In this document: in pieces, positions 29,835-64,000 of the stretch
Position numbering within the stretch: the first letter of the stretch is position 1
How the letters are laid out: each line of letters starts with the position of its first letter
Assembly: GCF_000482545.1 (NCBI RefSeq)
Contig: NZ_KI519454.1
Location: forward strand, 1,550,001-1,614,000
Length of the DNA: 64,000 nucleotides
Direction: 5' to 3'
Source of the DNA: Arthrobacter sp. 35W
GTDB taxonomy: Bacteria; Actinomycetota; Actinomycetes; Actinomycetales; Micrococcaceae
Made by a program: the position numbers and the translations under genes
The notes under the pieces: generated by a model
Told to the model about the DNA's origin: nothing
The model's input: only the letters and a program-made list of their open reading frames with translations
The model's database searches: none

Positions 29835-32800
29835 TTAGGTCTCCAGGTCCTCGTCGGGGTTCCTCAATGGCCGAAGTTCCGTGCCTGTGGCACCGGTCGT
29901 GAAAGAGTAGCGGCCCAGCATGTTGATGTGTTCCGAAACCAGCGGAGACAGGCGTTGCATGTCCTCGTCGGCAATGTTGACACCCCGGTCCCGCAGCCCA
30001 GTCAGCGGGTCGTCCAGGTAGCGGGTGTTCCACAGGATGACCGCGTTCAGGACCAGGCCAAGGGCTCCGAGCTGGTCTTCCTGGCCCTCCCGGTAGGACT
30101 GGCGTATCTGGCCTCTCCTGCCATGAAAGACGAGTCTGGCCAGCGCATGTCTGGATTCCTGCACAGTCAGCTGGGTATGAATCTGCCGGCGGTATCCCTC
30201 GTCAACATCGATGAAATCCAGCAGATGCTCGGTCTTGGCTATTCTGCCGTACTCCGCCAACGCCTTTCCGAGCAGGCTTGGTGTCCCACCGCCCTGGGTA
30301 ACCCGCAGGATTTCCGAGGCGCGCACGGTCCCGGCAATCAAGGACCCAGCAAAGCGAAGCATGTCCGGCCAGCTCGCCGTAATGAGCTCCATATTGATTC
30401 GGTTGCGGCCGGCCACCGCGTTCAGCTTCCCATAGTCCGCCGTGGCGTCGATGCGCCAGAACCGTTGGTCCGGCAACCCGGCCAGACGGGGCGAGAACCG
30501 GTATCCGAGCAGGGTGAAAAGCCCGAAGACCTGGTCCGAGTAGGAGGCCGTATCGCTGGCGACCATTTCGGGGCGTTGGCCGCCATCAAGATCGAACAGC
30601 CCATCCAAAATATGCAGGGAATCGCGGACCGTCCCCGGAACCACGACGGCACCCAGCCCGGAGTCTTGGTCGTTGAGATAGTTCAGCCAGGTCAATCCAC
30701 GACCGTGGCCAAAGTACCGGGGATTTGCCCCGGAATTGACGGTGGCCACCGGCACCACGAACCGCATTCCATCGACGGACGCCAACAAGCCTGTGCCCCA
30801 GCGTTGCGCGAGTCCAAGACCGGACTGGGCCTGGATTAGACGGGCGTTGGCCGCTCGAAGCGTATCGGCGCGTACATAGTTCTGGTCGACGTGCGTCAGG
30901 CGTCCACGCGTCAGGGCGGGGTGGCCGTCCTTGACCACCGGTGTCAGGCCGACGTTGCATGCCTCGGCAACCAGGATAGCGGCGACCGAAACACCGAGCT
31001 GGCCCATCCTTGCGGAGGCCTCCGAGACGTGGCTAAATTCCGAGAGGAACCCCGTCCAGGAATGCACTTCCAGCAGCACATCGGGCAGATCCACCCGCGG
31101 CAGCATCCCGGAGACCAACCCCCGCAACTGCGTCAAGGACTCAGGGACCGTCTTGGCCTCCAAGGGTGAAAGGTGGACCTTGCCGGAATCATCAATGCGT
31201 ACCGCGGGATTGTCGGCCAGTTGCTCGGCCGCCGCAAGATAACGGGCATCAAGGCGGTGGCGAACATCGGCCAGGTGGTCCGCTGGCTCTTCCGGCAGCT
31301 GGAGCGCCCTCAAGGTCTCAGTCTTGGTTTTCTGCCACGCCGGATCGGTGAGCAACCGCGCCCGGGGATCTCCCCAGCGACGCCCACCCACCACGAAAAT
31401 GTCCCTACGCCGCAGCGCCTTATGGACGGCCTCCATCACGGCCACCGTGTAGGCCTTGCGATCGATCTCCTCCGCAACCGTGACCAGGCGCTGCCAAGCC
31501 GGCGAGAGCACGGACAGATCAACCTCGGCCGGGTCCTTCTTAAGGCCGTCCAGAACCTCCGGCAGCGCCGTCAGCGCCGCCAACGTTGGTGCTCCGCACG
31601 CGGTGGCCCCGAAGGGTGCCGCCGCGGCCAACGCCGGCAGGAACGAGCGCACGGTGGCGAACCGCCGCATCATCTCGGCTGCGGTGTCAGCCTCGGCTCC
31701 GTCGGGATTCACCACTTCGTTCACCACCTCCAGCGCGGCGCGCAGCTCGGGCAAGGACACCTGATCGGCCAGCACCGAGGCGGCCCCTGCGCCGGAATAT
31801 TCCGTATTGCACAGGACCTCGACCAGTGTTTTCGCGGCCTTCGCCAATTGCAGTGAGGCCTTGGACAAGCGGGGCAGGGACTTCAACCGGGCCGCACTGG
31901 ATTCCCTGGCCGCCTTGCGCAGAACGCGTTCGGTGACAATGGCATCCAGAGCATCACACAAATCATCGGCAATCTCCGACGTCAAGGCGCGCACGGCACA
32001 AAGCAATGTCGCACCCCGGCGCCGGCCCGATAGTCCTCGAAGCGATGAGGCCTTGCCCGCCAACCCGTAGCGGGCCAAGGCATTCATCCGGCCCTCGGGG
32101 ATCATCTCCACGTCGATGGACTCGGCACCCAGCGCCCGCAAGCGGCCCAGCCGCTCCAACTGCCGCAACTACTCCGGCACCGACACCCGCGAGGGCCCGG
32201 TCCGCAGTCTTTCCCACGCGGTCAGCCGTGACCCCTCCCCAACGCGAAGCAGACCTTCCAATTCCAGAATCAAGGCGGGGCCGGCAGCGTCAACCAGCAT
32301 GGAATGGAGGCGGTCATTTGCTCCGGCACAGACCTCTATAACCAGTCGTGTCAACGTAGAGACGCCGGGGAGAAGGACCTTGCGCTCACGCAGCCAGAGC
32401 ACCGCCCGTTCAAACAGACGCACCGGTCCCTCCGACGACGTCCAGGCCCGGGCCTCCAGAAACAGCCTCAGCTCTTCGTACCGGGCCGGATCAGAGAAAT
32501 CCGCATACCCGTAAACGGTGGAGATTTCCGCGGCGTGCTCATAACCGGTCTGTCCCCGCTGCGCGTACAGCTTGAGCACGGAAGCATCCGCAATACCCAA
32601 CTGCCCGGCCAGGGATTCCACCAACGGCCACGGAACAGCCAATGGATCCGTCAGGAACCGCCCTGCCACCCGCACCGTGATCAGTTGGACAGCGAATCCC
32701 AGGCGGTTGTGCATTCCCCGACGGCGACCAACTACCGACAGGTCTGCATCGTCCAACCAACAGAAACGTTCCAGGTCCTCCGTCGATACCTCGTCGGGGA

Positions 32801-32858
32801 ATCCGCCGAACCCTGCGGCCTGCTCATCACTTAGAAAATCGACCGCCACGGAACCCAT
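29835..32858 (-). pseudogene. Tn3-family transposase (tnpA) interrupted by an in-frame TAG
   Basis: The frame gives 229 residues, a TAG at 32169-32171, then 777 residues in the same frame; about 1007 codons in total, the normal length for Tn3 TnpA. N-terminal parts include FGGFPDEVSTEDLERFCWL and RLGFAVQLITVRVAGRFL. The catalytic region shows a conserved Asp in VASDTASYSDQVFGLFTLLG followed by YRFSPRLAGLPDQRFWRID, and the end reads SEHINMLGRYSF. Only the single nonsense codon separates it from an intact gene. Confidence 0.88.
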
Positions 32859-39134: not shown

Positions 39135-39652
39135 CCGGTTCTACGCAGCGCGAGCCCCACTGGAATTCCCGGATTTGGAAATCAGCACGTTGCCACGGCC
39201 ACATGATTCCCCTAAAACCCGCCTGCGAAAATGTCCGGTGCAGGACTGTATGTGGAACAGGGATCCGAGTCCCGGGTGCTGGTGCTTTCGGAATGGGTCG
39301 AAGCCTCCGTTGGGCTGCCATCCTTCGGTGACGTCATCACTGATCCACTCAAGGAAGATGTCCAGCACATGTGAACGCTGGGGGAGTGAGGCGGACAATG
39401 CGACCGGGAAGGCGTGGGACGCGGTCCCGGTGTCGCTGGGACGCAGTCCAGCTGCATCAAATTGTCGCGTTCGCACCAGGATTCGAAGCCGGCGTGGCGC
39501 TGGTTCGTGGCGCACCACCGGAGGCAGGCAAAATTGCGTTGCCCTTTGGGGGCTGCCGGGCGCCGGAGCCGCAGAGGGTTCTCAAACGGGGCTGCGGGCC
39601 GCAAGTACCCAAACCTGCCAGATCAGCCGTTGAGGAGCCCCTTCCGGGCTTT

Positions 39653-39680
39653 ACTTGACATAATGTAGATTATCGGCGCG
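39653..39680 (-). other. dif: dif site for XerC/XerD chromosome dimer resolution
   Basis: A 28-bp Xer site: on the plus strand ACTTGACATAA, TGTAGA, TTATCGGCGCG. On the minus strand the core reads CCGATAAT-CT-ACATTATGTC followed by AAGT, which matches my recollection of the published actinobacterial dif consensus over its whole core. It also fits the E. coli layout of 11-bp XerC arm, 6-bp centre, 11-bp XerD arm (TTATGTCAAGT here, TTATGTTAAAT in E. coli). It lies in a long intergenic region. XerCD recombination here converts chromosome dimers to monomers at the terminus. Confidence 0.85.
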
Positions 39681-39843
39681 ATATCAGGGTCTGGAATAAT
39701 GCTGATTTCCAGCCTGTCATCTGTACGTCGATTTGGCGGTTCTGGACCTCAATTCCTGGCTCGGCCACCCCGTTCCCAAGTTCGCGCCCGGCCGACCGAC
39801 TGGGGCCAAACTGCCTTCAAACCGAAAATCCGGCCAAAATCTC

Positions 39844-39855
39844 AGACATATGTCT
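39844..39855. repeat. 12-bp perfect palindrome near dif
   Basis: AGACATATGTCT, equal to its own reverse complement, 163 bp from the dif-like site and just before the AGTTTAT cluster. Confidence 0.6.
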
Positions 39856-39867
39856 CGTTTTTGCCGA

Positions 39868-39952
39868 AGTTTATGCCTGCGTATAAACTCTCCATCTGGT
39901 CACATAAACTCGCCGAAACCATAAACTTTGACCAAAGTTTATGGAAGTTTAT
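39868..39952. repeat. cluster of six AGTTTAT/ATAAACT elements near dif
   Basis: AGTTTAT occurs at 39868, 39936 and 39946 and its complement ATAAACT at 39883, 39904 and 39921, six copies in 85 bp. Two copies form a perfect inverted repeat at 39919-39944 (CCATAAACTTTG, AC, CAAAGTTTATGG). Two others face each other with an 8-bp gap (39868-39889). Such density in high-GC DNA points to a multi-site protein-binding region. No gene is nearby that it obviously serves. Confidence 0.75.
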
Positions 39953-40254
39953 CGGTGCGGACAATTACAGTCTTTGACAAGCCGTAAAGCCGTGTTGGCC
40001 AGTTGCCGCTGTATCACTTGTAACAACGACAACGGCCAGGATGCCGGTGGACCAGCCCGGACAACCGTCGGAGCAGCCGGCGTCGACGATTCCAATCTGA
40101 AGTGCGGGCCGCCACTCCAGAAGAGACTCTGCAGGGGGGCCGAAAGGGCCGCCACTCCCCCGGTATTCATGAATTGAAATCCAATTCCGACAATTCAGAG
40201 ACAATTCAATAGCCATTGAATGTGGAGCCGCGCCGAGGTTGGCAGCCTCGTTCC

Positions 40255-41190
40255 ATGTCCACAGCCCGCCAACGCCTGGAAGACGTGCTGCCCGCGGCGG
40301 GTTTGTCCCTTGCAGACGATTCTGTACTACTTGAGAGCAACTCCAATGACGTTTGGGCCATCACGGACCCCGACCGCGGCACCGTCGTTCTCCGGATCTG
40401 CTGGCGGGGCGACAGGCAGCGGATGCTTCGCGAAGCCGCCGTTGGTCGTGAGCTGTCCAGGGTGGTTGGCTACCCTGAGGTGCTGGCCGCCGGCGCCGTT
40501 CCCGCCCCTGCGGGTCTGACCTAGATGGTCTGCCACCGGCTGCCCGGACAATCGCTTGGGATGGCATGGCCAGGGCTGCCCGAGGCCGTACAACAGACGT
40601 GCCTGGAGGATGCCGTCGCCCTGCTCAAGTCGCTCCATGCTTGGCGGCCGTCGGATGCCGCTTCCGCAATGATCGCCTCCATTGCACGGCCCCGGGAGAA
40701 CGACGCCGGCATCGCCGGAGCCTCGATCCTGCCGCTGCCACTGGACCGGGCGCTGGCGCTCCTGGCGGCCGCGGCGGAAGCGGATCCGTCCAATGCCGCC
40801 GGCTTTGCGAGGGAACGGCTGTTTCTCAGCGGGCGCGCCGGTCTGGTCTCCGGCTTTGACTCCCCCGGCTCCCCTGTTGTGCACGGCGATTTCACTGCGT
40901 CAAACCTATGGTTTGACGGCGGCAGAGTTGTTGGACTGTTGGATTTTGAATGGTGCAGATTCGCGCCGGCCTGCGTTGAACTCGACCGCATCGACGAAGC
41001 CGCTGCGGAAGAAGGGGCCGCGGGACAGCCGGCCGGTTTCCATATGCGGCTGCGCCGTCGGCTGGAAGCAGACTATCCGCAGCTGTTCGACGTCGAAGAC
41101 CTCGCGGAGCGCCTCCAAGTGCTGCAAACGGCGCATCAAATCCGCGAACGGCAGCTGGCGCGATGGTCCCGTGCCACGGGAATCCACTGA
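40255..41190 (+). pseudogene. aminoglycoside-phosphotransferase-like gene interrupted by an in-frame TAG
   Basis: One frame of about 311 codons from the ATG at 40255, with TAG at 40522-40524 after 89 codons. The C-terminal part has the APH/choline-kinase active site: VVHGDFTASNLWFDGG (catalytic Asp and Asn) and GLLDFEWCRFAP (metal-binding Asp). The N-terminal part keeps a kinase-like strand pattern (DVWAITDPDRGTVVLRICW). The stop falls in LT-stop-MVCHRLPGQSLG, where Trp is plausible (TGG to TAG). All else looks intact, so the loss appears recent. It would otherwise phosphorylate a small hydroxylated molecule. Confidence 0.85.
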
Positions 41191-41198
41191 ACCCCACA

Positions 41199-41234
41199 GT
41201 TGAGGGGTGGAAGCCTGCGCCTCCACCCCTCAAC
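41199..41234. terminator. bidirectional hairpin terminator
   Basis: GTTGAGGGGTGGA and TCCACCCCTCAAC are perfect 13-bp arms with a 10-nt loop, between the convergent APH-like pseudogene and the secreted glycosidase gene. Confidence 0.7.
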
Positions 41235-41255
41235 CCTCCCATTGGGTGTCCCGGG

Positions 41256-58035: not shown

Positions 58036-60954
58036 CTATTCGCCCACGGAGGAGTAGGCCACCACGCCGCGGCGCACTGTGTCGATGGCCTGCACGCAGA
58101 GCCGGCCGAAGCCCGGGGCCATGCCGGGGACCTTCGCCAGCTGGTCCAGCAGGTCGATCACCTGCTTGGCCCAGCGCACAAAGTCGCCCGCGGCCAGATC
58201 GGTGCCCTCCAGAACCTGCTGGAGGTGCTTGCCGCGGGCCCACTTGTACATCGGCCAGACCAGGCCCAGCTCCGGCTCGCCTGTCAGGGGCAGCTTGTGC
58301 GCCTCCTCGACGTCCTGCAGCACCGACCATTGGCGGACCACCGTGTCCACGGCGGTCTCCAGTGAGACACTGGGCATCCGGGGGCGCAGACCGCGTTCCT
58401 CGCGCTTGGCCTGGTAGACCAGGGTGGCGGCGGCGCAGGCAAGTTCAACGGCGTCGAGGTCGTCAAAGGCGCCCTCGCGCAGGCACAGGGCCACCAGCAG
58501 ATCCTTCTCGCCGTACACGCGCCGCAGCCGCTGGCCGTCGGCGCTGGGCCGCAGCGACCCGGCGTCGTCCATTTCGGCAAACCCGAAGGAGGAGAGCACC
58601 TCGCACACGCGGTCGAACGTCTTGGCAATGGTGTTGGTGCGGCCCTGGATCTGCCGCACCAGGGCGTCCGTCTCCCGGCGCAGCTTCCACCAGCGCTCCG
58701 ACCAACGGGCGTGGTTCTCCCTGTCGCTGCAGCCGTGGCAGGGGTGGGACCGCAGCTCGCGCCGGAGAGCGGCGATGGCCTCTTCCTGCTCGGCCGTGGA
58801 CGTGCGCAGCACGAAGCCGCCGGTCCGCTTGGCGCCGGCCCGCTCGCCAGGCTCGGCGCGCAGCGCATGCACCACCGCAGCCAGCAGATCCCGGCGGTCC
58901 TTGGCAACCTTGGCGTTGAAGGCCTTGGGGACCCGGACCTTGACCAGCGTCGACACCGGGCCGTCGAGGTCGTGGATGCTCAGCCGGCGGACCTGCTTGT
59001 CCATGGTCAGGATGGTGGGCCGCGGCTCGTGGGCGTACTCATCCGCGGCCAGCACCACGGCGTGGCCTGGCGCACGCCCGGCGGGGACGTCGACGACGTC
59101 GCCGGGGCGCAGGCTGGCCAGCGAGTCCTCCACGGCGGAGCGGAGCTGGCGGGACTTCTGCCGCGAGGCGGCGTCCTCCAGGTCGCTGATGCTGCGCCGC
59201 AGATTGGCGTATTCGGTGAAGTCCCCCAGGTGGCAGGTCATCGACTTCTCGTAGCCGGCCAGGGATTCCTCACGGGAGCGCACCTGCCTGGCCAGCCCCA
59301 CCACGGAGCGGTCCGCCTGGAACTGGGCAAAGGAGGATTCAAGGATGTCGCGGGAGCGGGCGCGGCCGAACTGCGCCATGAGGTTGATGCTCATGTTGTA
59401 GGTGGGCCGGAAGCTGGAATTCAGCGGGTAGGTCCGGCGCGAGGCCAGGCCGGCGACGGCGGCCGGATCCGTGCCGGGCTGCCACAGGACGACGGCGTGG
59501 CCCTCGACGTCGATGCCGCGCCGTCCCGCACGTCCCGTCAACTGGGTGTACTCCCCCGCCGTGATGTCCACGTGGGCCTCGCCATTGTACTTCTCCAGCT
59601 TTTCCAGCACCACCGAGCGGGCCGGCATGTTGACGCCCAGGGCCAGGGTTTCGGTGGCGAAGACGGCACGGACCAGACCGTCGGCAAAGAGCTTCTCCAC
59701 CACTTCCTTGAACGTGGGCAGCATGCCGGCGTGGTGGGCGGCCAGGCCGCGCAGCAGTCCGTCGCGCCAGCCCCAATAGCCCAGCACCTCGCGGTCGTCC
59801 ACGGGCAGATCGGCGCAGGCCTCGTCCACCCGGCGCGCAATCTCGTGCTGCTCATCGTCGGTGGTCAGCCACAGGCCGGCGTCGGCGCACTGCTTCACGG
59901 CGGCATCGCAGCCGGCGCGGGAAAAGATGAAGGTGATGGCCGGCAGCAGATCCGCCCGTTCCAGGGCGGTGATGACCTGGGCGCGGGTGGCCTTGCGGAC
60001 CACGCTGCGGTTCTGCGCGGGCGCGTCGTTGCGGGAGTTGCGGGAGGCCTTGTCCCGGCGCACCTGGCGTCCACCGTGGCCGTAGCGGCCGCGGTAGTTG
60101 GAGGTGGACTCGGAGCGGGCCAGGCGCAGCAGCTCGGGGTTGACGTCCCATTCGCGCCCTGACGGCACGGCTTCAAACGGCGCGGCATCCTGTGCAGGCT
60201 CCCCCGCGGCATCCGTGGCTGCGCGGTCCTGCGCCAGCGGGAGCTGGTCGAAGGACGTGTCCGAGGCGAAGAGGTCCACGATGTCGCGCGAAACCATCAC
60301 ATGCTGCCACAGCGGCACAGGGCGGTGCTCCGAGACGATCACATCCGTGTCGCCGCGGACGGTGTCCAGCCACGCACCAAATTCCTCGGCGTTGGAGACT
60401 GTGGCGCTCAGGGAGGCCAGCTGCACCTCGCTGGGCAGGTGGATGATGACCTCTTCCCAGACGGCGCCGCGGAACCTGTCCGCAAGGTAGTGGACCTCGT
60501 CCATCACTACGAAGGCGAGGTCGTCCAGGGCCTCAGAGTCCGCGTAGAGCATGTTCCGCAGGACCTCGGTGGTCATGACCACGATGGAGGCATCGCCGTT
60601 GATGTTGGTGTCGCCGGTCAGCAGGCCGACATTCTCGTGGCCGTACTTGTCCGCCAATTCGGCATACTTCTGATTGCTCAGGGCCTTGATGGGGGTGGTG
60701 TAGAACGCCTTGCGTCCCTTGGCAAGGGCCAGATAGACGGCAAACTCGCCAACGATGGTTTTCCCTGCCCCCGTGGGAGCGGCCACCAGAACTCCGCGCC
60801 CGGCCTCCAGCGAGGCACAGGCGCGGGCCTGGAAATCATCCAACTCGAAACCGAAGGTTTCCTTGAACGCGCCATAGCGCGTCCGGGCCTCGGCGCTGCG
60901 GGTCTTTGCCGCACGGTAGCGGTCAGATGGTGAGGGCTGTGCGGGCTCAGACAT
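58036..60954 (-). CDS. helY: Ski2/Mtr4-like DEAD/DEAH-box helicase HelY
   Basis: 972 residues. Walker A (LVAAPTGAGKTIVGEFAVYL, ~53), DEVH box (VVMDEVHYLADRFRG, ~150), SAT-type motif (LASLSATVSNAEEFG) and helicase motif VI (YTQLTGRAGRRGIDVEGHAV) are clear. The C-terminal DSHCT-like domain (~800-972) ends with FGRLCVQAIDTVRRGVV. It is an ATP-driven RNA helicase. Its place downstream of tatC matches the conserved actinobacterial order pafB-pafC-tatA-tatC-helY. Confidence 0.95.
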   Translation of the reverse strand: MSEPAQPSPSDRYRAAKTRSAEARTRYGAFKETFGFELDDFQARACASLEAGRGVLVAAPTGAGKTIVGEFAVYLALAKGRKAFYTTPIKALSNQKYAELADKYGHENVGLLTGDTNINGDASIVVMTTEVLRNMLYADSEALDDLAFVVMDEVHYLADRFRGAVWEEVIIHLPSEVQLASLSATVSNAEEFGAWLDTVRGDTDVIVSEHRPVPLWQHVMVSRDIVDLFASDTSFDQLPLAQDRAATDAAGEPAQDAAPFEAVPSGREWDVNPELLRLARSESTSNYRGRYGHGGRQVRRDKASRNSRNDAPAQNRSVVRKATRAQVITALERADLLPAITFIFSRAGCDAAVKQCADAGLWLTTDDEQHEIARRVDEACADLPVDDREVLGYWGWRDGLLRGLAAHHAGMLPTFKEVVEKLFADGLVRAVFATETLALGVNMPARSVVLEKLEKYNGEAHVDITAGEYTQLTGRAGRRGIDVEGHAVVLWQPGTDPAAVAGLASRRTYPLNSSFRPTYNMSINLMAQFGRARSRDILESSFAQFQADRSVVGLARQVRSREESLAGYEKSMTCHLGDFTEYANLRRSISDLEDAASRQKSRQLRSAVEDSLASLRPGDVVDVPAGRAPGHAVVLAADEYAHEPRPTILTMDKQVRRLSIHDLDGPVSTLVKVRVPKAFNAKVAKDRRDLLAAVVHALRAEPGERAGAKRTGGFVLRTSTAEQEEAIAALRRELRSHPCHGCSDRENHARWSERWWKLRRETDALVRQIQGRTNTIAKTFDRVCEVLSSFGFAEMDDAGSLRPSADGQRLRRVYGEKDLLVALCLREGAFDDLDAVELACAAATLVYQAKREERGLRPRMPSVSLETAVDTVVRQWSVLQDVEEAHKLPLTGEPELGLVWPMYKWARGKHLQQVLEGTDLAAGDFVRWAKQVIDLLDQLAKVPGMAPGFGRLCVQAIDTVRRGVVAYSSVGE

Positions 60955-60972: not shown

Positions 60973-61809
60973 CTAGAGCTGCCCAAGTTCCGTCAACGGT
61001 GTTGCGTGGTCGGCTGTGGCGCCCGTCTCCTCGGCCGTCTTGGCGATCTTCCGATCGCGGCGCTTGTCATTGAGCATGCACAGCCCAATGGCGCCGAAAT
61101 ACAGTGCCAGCAGCGGTGCCGCCAGGAAGAACATCGAGAAGGCATCGGCGCCCGGTGCGGCCATGGCCGAGACAAGGGTGACGGCCAGGATGGTGATGCG
61201 CCAGGCCTTGAGCATGGTCCGTCCGCGGACCAGCCCCATGGCGTTGACGCCAACCAGCACCACGGGCACCAGGAACGAGATGCCCATGAACAGCATCAGC
61301 TGCATCACGAACTGCATGTAGTCCGTGGCGTGGATGATGTTGGAGCCGCCGGTGGGGGTGAAGGAGGTCAGGGCATGCACGATGTTGGGCATGATCAGCC
61401 AACCGGTCCAGATGCCTGCGGCAAAGAGCGGGATGGCGGCGAACATGTACGCCAGCGTGTAGCCGCGTTCCTTCTTGGTCAGACCGGGGGTGATGAACGC
61501 CCACAGCTGGTAGATCCACACGGGCGAGGAGAAGATGGCACCCAGGAAGATGGAGGCCTGGATCTTCAGATCGAACGAGGTGGAGACGCCATCAAAGTTC
61601 AGGGAGGCGACAACGCCGCGGTCCCTGCTGATGGCCATGATGGGCTCGGCGACGTCGGTGAACAGGCGGTCATACATGATCCAGCCTGCGACGGCGCCGA
61701 GCACCAAGGCGATGGCACATTTGAAGAGCCTGTTGCGCAGCTCAATCAGGTGGTCCTTGAGGGCCATCCGACCCTCAGGGTTGGCTTTGCGGCCCTTCGA
61801 AGTGCTCAC
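60973..61809 (-). CDS. tatC: Sec-independent protein translocase TatC
   Basis: 278 residues, GTG start. Six membrane helices with the family opening MALKDHLIELRNRLFKCAIA and the periplasmic loop before helix 2. Also FSSPVWIYQLWAFITPGLTK and the conserved Glu-containing region at KKERGYT. TatC recognises twin-arginine signal peptides, for example that of the oxidase at 2479-3606. It lies 5 bp after tatA and 18 bp before helY. Confidence 0.96.
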   Translation of the reverse strand: MSTSKGRKANPEGRMALKDHLIELRNRLFKCAIALVLGAVAGWIMYDRLFTDVAEPIMAISRDRGVVASLNFDGVSTSFDLKIQASIFLGAIFSSPVWIYQLWAFITPGLTKKERGYTLAYMFAAIPLFAAGIWTGWLIMPNIVHALTSFTPTGGSNIIHATDYMQFVMQLMLFMGISFLVPVVLVGVNAMGLVRGRTMLKAWRITILAVTLVSAMAAPGADAFSMFFLAAPLLALYFGAIGLCMLNDKRRDRKIAKTAEETGATADHATPLTELGQL

Positions 61810-62522: not shown

Positions 62523-64000
62523 CTAACTGCCGGTTCCTGGTGCGGCGTCCTGGCCCGCCGTGCCCTCTGTGCCGGCATCCAGTGGCCGCGCGGCGTAGCC
62601 GGCAAGCGCTTCCCCAAGCCACGCGTCCACCGCATCCACGACGGCCGGCGGAGAGGCCACACGGCCGCCGCCGCCGAGCTGGGCCACGAGGGCGGCTATC
62701 ACGGGCGGACGCGAGGTGCGGATGCGCACGGCCGTGCCGCCGCCGGCCAACGGCGCGACGGCGTCCGCCGAATAGGCGTCGGCCACCCAGGCTGCGCGCC
62801 GGGCCAGGACCAACACCACCTCGACATCGTCGCTGGAGGGCGTGAACAGCCGCGAGGGCACCGGGCCGTCCAGGGCCACACCGCGGTCCGGTGCCTGCTC
62901 CCCCGTGGCCGCCAGCGCCGTGATGCCGCTGAGCCGGAAGGTCCGCTGGCCCTCGGCCAGGCGGCACCAGGCCTGGACGTACCAGCGCGAGTCCACGGAG
63001 AACACCCGCAGCGGCTCGATGGTGCGCTCGGTGGGCGCCGCGCCGTCGTCCTTCACGTAGGTGATGTGGGCGCAGCCGTGCGTGCGCACCAGCTCCTGCA
63101 GCGTGGTGATGGTCTCCAGCGGCGCATCCGCGGTGATCCGGGCCTCAACGGCGTTGGCCAGCCAGGCCTGGTCGCCGGCTATCGCCAGGACGTCCGCCTG
63201 CACCTTGTCCAGCACGGCGCCGCCGTCGGCGCTGGGCAGGGACCGCAGGGCCGCCAGCCCCACCAGCACCGCGCACGCTTCCTCCTGGGTGAGCCGCAGC
63301 GGCCGCGTCAGTTCCTGGGGGTCGAGGATGAAGACCACCCCGTCCTCCCAGCCGACGTCGATCAGATCGCCGTGGTAGCCGCCGGGCAGCCCGCAGACCG
63401 AGAGCAGGCCGAGGTCCGCCTCCAGCTCCGCGGCGGTGATGCCGAATTCGGTGGCCACGGAAGCGGCCTCGATGCCCGGGTTCTGCAGCAAGTACGGGAC
63501 CATGTCCAGCAGTCTGCGCAGGCGGTCCTCGGTGCTCGCCCGGGATCTGGCCGGCGCCGGCTTGCCGGGAAACGCGAAGTCCACCAGCGCACCTGCTGCG
63601 GCCTCGGCCGCGCCCGTGAGCCGGTCCAGAACATCGCTGCGGAGCTGTTCCGGCGCGACGACGACGGCGGCCGGCCCCAACGCGGCGAGGGTCGCTGCCA
63701 TCAGCTCCGGCTCGCGGTAGTGCAGTGTCAACCGGTCCCAGCCCGGCGCCGGGGCGGGCGCCACAACGGCGTCTTCACGAAGCCGTGCGGCGGTGCCCTC
63801 GGCAACGTCCACGATGGCCGTGGATTCGGTGCCGGTGCCCAGCGCGTCAAGGACCGTGGCAATGTCAAAGTCCTCGGGGCGGGCAAAGGTGGTCTTGGCG
63901 TCGACCTCGACGTCGCTGGTGATCCGCGAGAGGCGGAAGAGGCGCTGGCCGCCCGTGGGGATGTCGCGGCCGCTCAGGTACCACTGGCCGTACTTGTTGC
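62523..64000 (-). CDS. pafBC: PafB-PafC fusion, WYL-domain regulator of the DNA-damage response (5' end missing)
   Basis: The frame is open to the window edge; 491 codons are visible. The first visible residues (KYGQWYLSGRDIPTGGQRLF) belong to the WYL domain of a PafB-like half. A second, PafC-like half follows with its own HTH (RLRRLLDMVPYLLQNPGIEA, ASVATEFGITAAELEADLGL) and WYL domain (TIEPLRVFSVDSRWYVQAWC). Fused PafBC is known from Arthrobacter. It activates the LexA/RecA-independent mitomycin-type DNA damage response. It leads the tatA-tatC-helY block. Confidence 0.92.
   Translation of the reverse strand, partial: NKYGQWYLSGRDIPTGGQRLFRLSRITSDVEVDAKTTFARPEDFDIATVLDALGTGTESTAIVDVAEGTAARLREDAVVAPAPAPGWDRLTLHYREPELMAATLAALGPAAVVVAPEQLRSDVLDRLTGAAEAAAGALVDFAFPGKPAPARSRASTEDRLRRLLDMVPYLLQNPGIEAASVATEFGITAAELEADLGLLSVCGLPGGYHGDLIDVGWEDGVVFILDPQELTRPLRLTQEEACAVLVGLAALRSLPSADGGAVLDKVQADVLAIAGDQAWLANAVEARITADAPLETITTLQELVRTHGCAHITYVKDDGAAPTERTIEPLRVFSVDSRWYVQAWCRLAEGQRTFRLSGITALAATGEQAPDRGVALDGPVPSRLFTPSSDDVEVVLVLARRAAWVADAYSADAVAPLAGGGTAVRIRTSRPPVIAALVAQLGGGGRVASPPAVVDAVDAWLGEALAGYAARPLDAGTEGTAGQDAAPGTGS

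Follow-up and report, generated by a model that had tools for sequence, protein, structure and literature searches.

The 28-bp sequence at positions 39653 to 39680 of the window (the whole stretch of 64,000 nucleotides from Arthrobacter sp. 35W analysed here) is the dif site of the chromosome, an ordinary member of the known dif/FtsK system that would pin down the chromosomal terminus at single-base precision, and beside it lies what we identify as the incomplete relic of a Tn7-like (TnsABC-TniQ) transposon. What is new at this locus is the association with the transposon, a dif site alone being of an already-known kind. Taken as a whole, we consider it very probable that this chromosomal dif is acted on by XerCD and FtsK, that polar GGGGGAG heptamers guide FtsK to it and that the relic stems from Tn7-like elements for which dif would be the attachment site. 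The first-pass annotation of this DNA had recognized the dif site correctly and had overlooked both the polar motif and the transposon relic.

The site and its parts are as follows.
39653 to 39680, minus strand: dif site, 28 bp, core match without mismatch, single copy in the genome, kept in relatives
39670 to 39680, minus strand: XerC arm of dif
39664 to 39669, minus strand: centre of dif
39653 to 39663, minus strand: XerD arm of dif

Read on the minus strand, the site is CGCGCCGATAA-TCTACA-TTATGTCAAGT, with the Xer layout 11-6-11 and the actinobacterial core that the first-pass annotation had claimed; the 28-mer matches this core with 0 mismatches. A search of the window at up to three mismatches gave one core match, and none of 100 shuffled controls contained any. 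Multiple copies were sought throughout the genome (4.66 Mb, four contigs), where one copy was found at ≤3 mismatches and none of the reversed control pattern. The arm assignment follows in part the arrangement of the E. coli dif. Its other basis is the dif layout in the available portion of PMC10132070. According to the available portion of Kono et al. 2011 (PMC3025954), in which Arthrobacter is not named, the actinobacterial dif is a 28-bp sequence of 11-6-11 layout that occurs once per chromosome near the terminus, and it was predicted in 66 of 66 single-chromosome actinobacteria. Nothing essential distinguishes our site from those described there: it has 25 of 28 bases in common with the Frankia dif quoted in that portion, and is thus 3 bases off this seed.

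The sequence around dif (39135 to 40255) had been described as a gene-poor, AT-rich region of 1.1 kb. It is moderately AT-rich, with a G+C content of 57.4% versus 65.2% for the window, mostly to the right of dif, where the value is 53.4%; it is gene-poor now, yet contains the TnsA relic. Relatives were checked for absence of the site. A dif match at ≤3 mismatches is present in 33 of 37 relatives, including all 22 other genus genomes examined; a looser pattern found the exact core in two of the four remaining relatives, and gave chance-like matches alone in the last two, which are fragmented genomes. Some relatives have weaker extra matches, several of them on small contigs or plasmids. Of the 22 other genus genomes, 21 match the 1.1-kb stretch (E ≤0.001) with dif covered in each; outside dif, matches are confined to G017, G012, G016 and G019. 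The genes to the right of dif include three syntenic markers.
58036 to 60954, minus strand: HelY-like helicase gene on the XerC side, NCBIfam Hel308-type matches below cut-offs
60973 to 61809, minus strand: tatC, TIGR00945 above cut-off
62523 to 63812, minus strand: gene of a PafC-like WYL regulator, PF19187 (HTH_PafC) and WYL above cut-off

Nine of 10 relatives inspected within ±40 kb have the helicase gene on the side of dif where it lies in the window (the match being partial or distant, hence weak, in G025, G026 and G033), and 6 of 10 have tatC there; G012 has dif, and neither the helicase gene nor tatC within 40 kb of it. The earlier statement that helY-tat-pafBC read on the leading strand was right in its orientation, with the helicase gene, tatC and the PafC-like gene all reading toward dif; the name HelY is that of the first-pass annotation, the NCBIfam matches being other helicases, below cut-off.

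The position of dif on the chromosome was judged relative to dnaA, which lies on contig C2 at 1,072,864, dif being on C1 at 1,589,653. With the contig order inferred from motif polarity, the two arcs between dnaA and dif measure 2.46 and 2.19 Mb (2.66 and 1.99 Mb if C2 were reversed), and dif is roughly half-way round from dnaA, opposite oriC. The first-pass annotation had expected the site opposite oriC and also at the switch of GC skew, and only the former was found: the skew shows no sharp switch at dif, with values of +0.009 and +0.007 over the 200 kb to the left and right and of +0.020 far left and -0.010 far right on C1. This signal is too weak to locate dif, and we rejected it as proof of the terminus; a switch of GGGGGAG within 775 bp takes its place.

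We ranked 7-mers by their strand bias toward dif over 400 kb centred on the site. GGGGGAG ranks first of the 7304 heptamers with an excess of copies toward dif, 114 of its 117 copies being oriented toward dif and 3 away (57/1 on the left, 57/2 on the right), and its best single switch point falls between 39380 and 40155, in a 775-bp gap that holds dif and is bounded by two copies.
39380 to 39386, plus strand: GGGGGAG copy nearest to dif on its left, oriented toward dif, left boundary of the switch interval
40155 to 40161, minus strand: GGGGGAG copy nearest to dif on its right, oriented toward dif, right boundary of the switch interval

All 22 copies in the window are consistent (11 of 11 on the plus strand left of dif, 11 of 11 on the minus strand right of it). 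In sampled stretches farther out on C1, the counts are +68/-1 far left and +0/-42 far right; those on C2 are +2/-38 before dnaA, +1/-5 in the 40 kb round dnaA and +16/-1 from 1.15 Mb on, with the polarity flipping near dnaA. The density of the motif does not rise at the terminus relative to the rest of C1 (117 copies in the 400 kb round dif, against 69 and 42 in stretches of 220 kb far left and 160 kb far right, respectively); on C2, 40 copies lie in 220 kb before dnaA, and density is lower near dnaA only. The window has no GGGGGAG between 22554 and 37072, as in a recently inserted island, and a Tn3-family transposase at 29835 to 32858 on the minus strand is present as two adjoining frames split by a stop.

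In the 80 kb round dif of 10 relatives from several families, GGGGGAG also leads the 7-mers in 9, with 262 of 264 copies toward dif. The lack of any copy in the tenth relative, G005, is explained by the want of long homopolymers in its sequence: runs of at least 5 are depleted and Ns are scattered, so that we dismissed the apparent absence of polar motifs as an artefact and regard this public genome (L117-L120) as unfit for motif counts. The E. coli KOPS GGGNAGGG was tried and rejected as a polar motif here, its bias being too weak (59 toward versus 39 away).

The polarity could conceivably reflect mutation bias or leading-strand ribosome-binding sites instead of reading by FtsK, a possibility that we judge quite unlikely. 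Shine-Dalgarno-like sequences are G-rich, and four close variants of the heptamer are skewed as well (GGGGGAC 52/10, GGGGGAT 34/8, AGGGGAG 21/7, CGGGGAG 58/44), but the remaining single-base variants show little bias (GGCGGAG, for example, 143/129), and the reversed heptamer has no polarity round dif (left 10/10, right 8/15). Genes occupy both strands on either side of dif, and the switch is confined to 775 bp. In the available portion of the Corynebacterium aurimucosum genome paper (PMC2830990), (T/C)GGGGGAG and G(A/T/C)GGGGGA are octamers whose strand polarity served to place dif in Corynebacterium, and (T/C)GGGGGAG with the second octamer counts 856 leading versus 61 lagging copies (for KOPS, see also the available portion of PMC5993296). 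Since these octamers have been published, GGGGGAG itself is already known; its polarity is the same as that of (T/C)GGGGGAG among the Corynebacterium AIMS/KOPS, whereas here the motif is a heptamer, it is found in a Micrococcaceae-like genus and in several families, and its switch interval spans 775 bp. This breadth and sharpness is an extension. GGGGGAG is a simple candidate for the motif orienting FtsK in this part of the Actinomycetota, with a polarity sharp enough for locating dif on chromosomes and large plasmids.

The genome encodes one FtsK-gamma domain and seven tyrosine-recombinase matches, one of them closest to XerC and one closest to XerD; both score somewhat below the equivalog cut-offs, and the XerD-like recombinase is above the subfamily cut-off. 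We infer the action of XerCD and FtsK at the window dif: XerC and XerD would bind the two 11-bp arms, FtsK would pump the terminus through the closing septum and contact XerD, and XerCD would then recombine two sister dif sites, converting a chromosome dimer into two monomers. FtsK would most likely locate dif via GGGGGAG, which is aimed at dif along both replichores.

Dif-like sites also occur on actinobacterial plasmids, in match lists that extend to E values of 10 and include weak matches in other phyla. In 12 chosen plasmid records, the site lies between annotated genes, according to the PLSDB gene table, which is incomplete. On 11 of these 12, 160 of 185 GGGGGAG copies within 20 to 40 kb on each side point toward the plasmid site, whereas the reversed heptamer gives 53 of 89. 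The count is 80 of 81 on the four largest plasmids, which measure 313 to 450 kb, and 3 of 6 on the weakest. Five plasmid-like contigs of relatives gave 16/18, 12/14, 20/22 and 6/10 toward the site and, for one, no copies; the contig with 20/22 agrees with the twelfth plasmid record in the position of the site. Large plasmids with a dif-like site amid converging polar motifs have been reported for the Enterobacteriaceae and other large replicons (available portions of PMC11724359 and PMC13342612). Site and converging motifs are the same in the two cases, the motif being GGGNAGGG there and GGGGGAG on the actinobacterial plasmids here. All 16 plasmid dif sites examined (including the L164-L175 records) have a centre other than TCTACA, and such differing centres may prevent recombination between plasmid and chromosome. 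Phages were discarded as dif carriers after seven weak matches, none of which spans 80% of the query.

Plasmid sites of this kind, together with the transposon relic that adjoins the window site, raise the question of whether an integrated element left the latter behind as a secondary or plasmid-type dif, the true dif lying elsewhere. We hold this to be extremely improbable: the genome has no second site at 3 mismatches, the GGGGGAG switch and the synteny both indicate the window site, and its central six bases are those of most chromosomes of the genus and of none of the 16 plasmid sites. The single copy, the conservation in the genus genomes examined and the heptamer switch at the site thus uphold the original identification as the chromosomal dif.

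On the XerD side of this dif, two features reveal the transposon.
39404 to 39592, minus strand: relic of tnsA, the gene for the endonuclease subunit of a Tn7-like transposase, found as a translated match to the TnsA of G017; its N-terminal side faces dif, and 61 bp separate it from the XerD arm
39355 to 39548, no strand assigned: DNA block common to the dif surroundings of genus members, with 76% identity to G017 and G012 and shorter matches in G016 and G019

The relic corresponds to residues 50 to 112 of the 263 of G017 TnsA, with 62% identity over 63 residues (E = 4.2e-19); the open reading frame round it has no Pfam match at E 0.1. The block is on the XerD side of dif in G017, G012, G016 and G019 too, at other distances. 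Of the element, the window retains the tnsA piece and no element end, and no end motif occurs within 1.5 kb of dif. The block coincides in G017 with the start of a tnsA-tnsB-tnsC-tniQ operon without internal stops, in which PF08722 (TnsA), the Mu C-terminal domain (DDE transposase) and a TniB-type ATPase are above cut-off and the rve and TniQ matches below, a relative of the TniQ, P0018, being above cut-off. The element end of G017, TGTCCTGTCTC, starts 45 bp from dif and is followed by three repeats of the kind expected of transposase sites; the far end was not found within 55 kb.

Similar elements adjoin dif in other relatives. The exact 11-mer of the element end lies 48 to 56 bp before dif (measured from its first base, in the orientation of the window) in 5 of an initial set of 30 dif loci, namely in G003, G012, G016, G017 and G019, and a relaxed end motif is present within ~1.5 kb of dif at 6 of 33 loci on the XerD side and at 0 of 33 on the XerC side, of which just 30 bp are visible at one locus. 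All 16 insertions with a visible end, in 16 other genomes, are on the XerD side with the tnsA end toward dif, and leave dif intact. Measured from the outer edge of the XerD arm, their ends lie at 34, 35, 37, 37, 39, 39, 42, 43, 45, 45, 47, 49, 50, 51, 61 and 69 bp, a range rather than a single value; nine of the 16 ends contain the exact 11-mer and the other 7 were placed by eye, and the 69-bp case also has TGTC at 45. Tn7 generates a 5-bp target duplication. Both ends, of TGT...ACA type and about 5.5 kb apart, are visible in one compact element (G403), whose flanks have 16 of 17 bases in common and, in this only element with both ends, no plain 5-bp target duplication. GGGGGAG within 1.3 kb on the XerD side points at dif in 13 of 16 loci (own locus included, G016 excluded), is absent in 3 and points away in none.

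A TnsA match (E ≤1e-8) occurs in 36 of 396 genomes of the order; in 7 of these 36, our own included, TnsA lies on the XerD side at 61 to 237 bp from dif and is directed away from it, and in 29 it does not. Named TnsA loci were examined for the best 80 of 572 confirmed, 75 of which have at least 300 bp upstream. Five of these best 80 (from Arthrobacter in three cases, from Nocardioides and Kribbella in one each) have a dif in the 700 bp upstream, with ≤1 mismatch over 15 positions, and 75 have none beside TnsA, a few of them with short contig ends; as controls, the opposite orientation gave one match, 631 bp away, and the reversed pattern none below 4 mismatches. Within the genus, 9 of 23 genomes have a trace (a TnsA piece or an end) within ~1.1 kb of dif, on the XerD side in all 9. 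In a tree of 89 sequences, judged by its branching order without support values, the 13 dif-adjacent TnsA sequences are spread over 8 separate groups.

Three further loci deserve mention. TnsA fragments on the XerD side of dif in G004 and G011 (L020 about 2417-2587; L015 about 2565-2705), at distances of ~0.9 and 1.0 kb, are apparently further decayed insertions. In Arthrobacter sp. Leaf337 (L247 2655-2860), a good XerC arm with a poor XerD arm, perhaps a decayed dif-like target, precedes the element end by ~100 bp. G018 has TGTCCTGTC 44 bp from dif, with no further end match and no TnsA nearby, and was not counted as an insertion.

Since the insertions of relatives lie 34 to 69 bp from the XerD arm, with the tnsA end first and dif intact, dif most likely serves as the attachment site of these Tn7-like insertions; random insertion would not yield such a distribution. 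Part of the Tn7-like family thus seems to use dif in this manner, as judged from position. The 8 groups of the TnsA tree imply that the dif-adjacent habit is either old and often lost or has arisen more than once. It is unlikely that the traces beside dif in the genus descend without any targeting from one ancestral insertion, as might be supposed from the similar DNA block in four genus members and from the decay of several copies. The same-place insertions extend to other families and also to Nocardioides and Kribbella, the dif-adjacent TnsA sequences fall into the separate groups mentioned above, and the spacer between element end and dif differs among carriers, that of G012 resembling, by eye, the uninserted G015 and G007 rather than G017.

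Returning to dif as the attachment site, we infer active targeting by TniQ. More tentatively, an actinobacterial Tn7-like lineage might use the Xer-dif complex as a landing beacon: the small TniQ (293 aa in G017) would sense XerD or XerCD at dif and direct insertion to the XerD side, a few helix turns off, with the GGGGGAG of the element itself pointing at dif. We see this as possible, though more likely wrong than right; if true, the element would park at a host-essential site without harming dif. The idea of a small TniQ that may depend on a bound partner is drawn from the discussion of TniQ/TnsD in the available portion of PMC10293859. Plasmid dif sites were dropped as a target of the same transposon, no adjacent case having been seen: of the 40 plasmids listed among 171 with a TnsA match, one also has an examined dif, with a gap of about 23 kb between TnsA and dif, and on pHiyo8-1 a TnsA match lies about 4 kb from dif.

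Our literature searches found no report of Tn7-like elements hunting dif, nor of Tn7-like elements in combination with TniQ and dif, and for TnsA with dif, the IS1202 paper alone was relevant by title. As described in the available portions of two surveys (PMC8649781, PMC10293859), Tn7-like transposons consist of TnsA, the DDE transposase TnsB, the AAA+ TnsC and TniQ and insert near a fixed site that is left intact; one of the two notes an Actinobacteria-dominated clade without experiments. The word dif is absent from the main texts of both, a listing in the supplementary tables being possible. The elements described here have the same gene set and leave a fixed site intact, with the difference that this site is a Xer recombination site. 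In the available portion of PMC10132070, the IS1202-family "dif site hunters" insert beside pdif and chromosomal dif in one orientation and have TGT...ACA ends like those of Tn7. Both groups thus adjoin dif in one orientation and share such ends. The IS1202 family, however, has a lone transposase without TnsA, TnsC and TniQ and inserts 5 bp from the XerC side (PMC10132070), unlike the dif-side Tn7-like elements, which carry a four-gene operon and lie on the XerD side at 34 to 69 bp. The Tn7-like elements beside dif would represent a second, mechanistically different class of dif hunters besides IS1202. Targeting of dif by Tn7-like elements, if true, would tie transposon targeting to the chromosome-segregation machinery and provide a natural insertion system for a conserved, harmless site. 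Tn5053, linked with "res site hunters" in a title by Minakhina et al. from 1999, reportedly senses resolvase-occupied sites; it aims at a site-specific recombination site, as the elements described here would, and this site is the plasmid serine-resolvase res for Tn5053 and the tyrosine-recombinase dif here.

Six of 16 plasmid dif sites, and likewise 6 of 16 transposon-adjacent chromosomal ones, have a palindrome of the type CTGCRTATNNCATCNGATGNATCA (or its core) at ~6 bp from the XerD arm on its outer side; the count is 0 of 26 for other chromosomal dif sites, our own included.
Plasmid carriers of CTGCRTATNNCATCNGATGNATCA: L165-L168, L170, L174
Chromosomal carriers of CTGCRTATNNCATCNGATGNATCA: L016, L240, L242, L249, L255, L314

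The palindrome together with the XerD arm matches in 11 of the 396 genomes of the order (reversed control, 0), and an extended dif-flank pattern has no exact match in viral contigs. The view of the palindrome as part of the transposon is weakened by the plasmid carriers and by the absence of 10 of these 11 genomes from the 36 with TnsA. Related extended sites of dif and palindrome occur on Gordonia, Rhodococcus and Arthrobacter-type plasmids, and the palindrome is perhaps the site of an accessory protein or the mark of a Xer-integrated element.

Some minor features lie to the right of dif in the window. The stretch from 39690 to 40250 has no plasmid match, and the one structured-RNA match (41195-41254) is below the gathering score. 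Six copies of AGTTTAT/ATAAACT, out of eight in 400 kb, are packed into ~90 bp (39867-39953); this AGTTTATG cluster was rejected as a terminus element, as none of the 29 other dif loci compared has such a cluster and only two have a single AGTTTAT within 1.5 kb. At 40216-41190, an APH-family (PF01636) phosphotransferase frame is cut by one in-frame TAG, with an ATG directly after it, and is probably a decayed gene.
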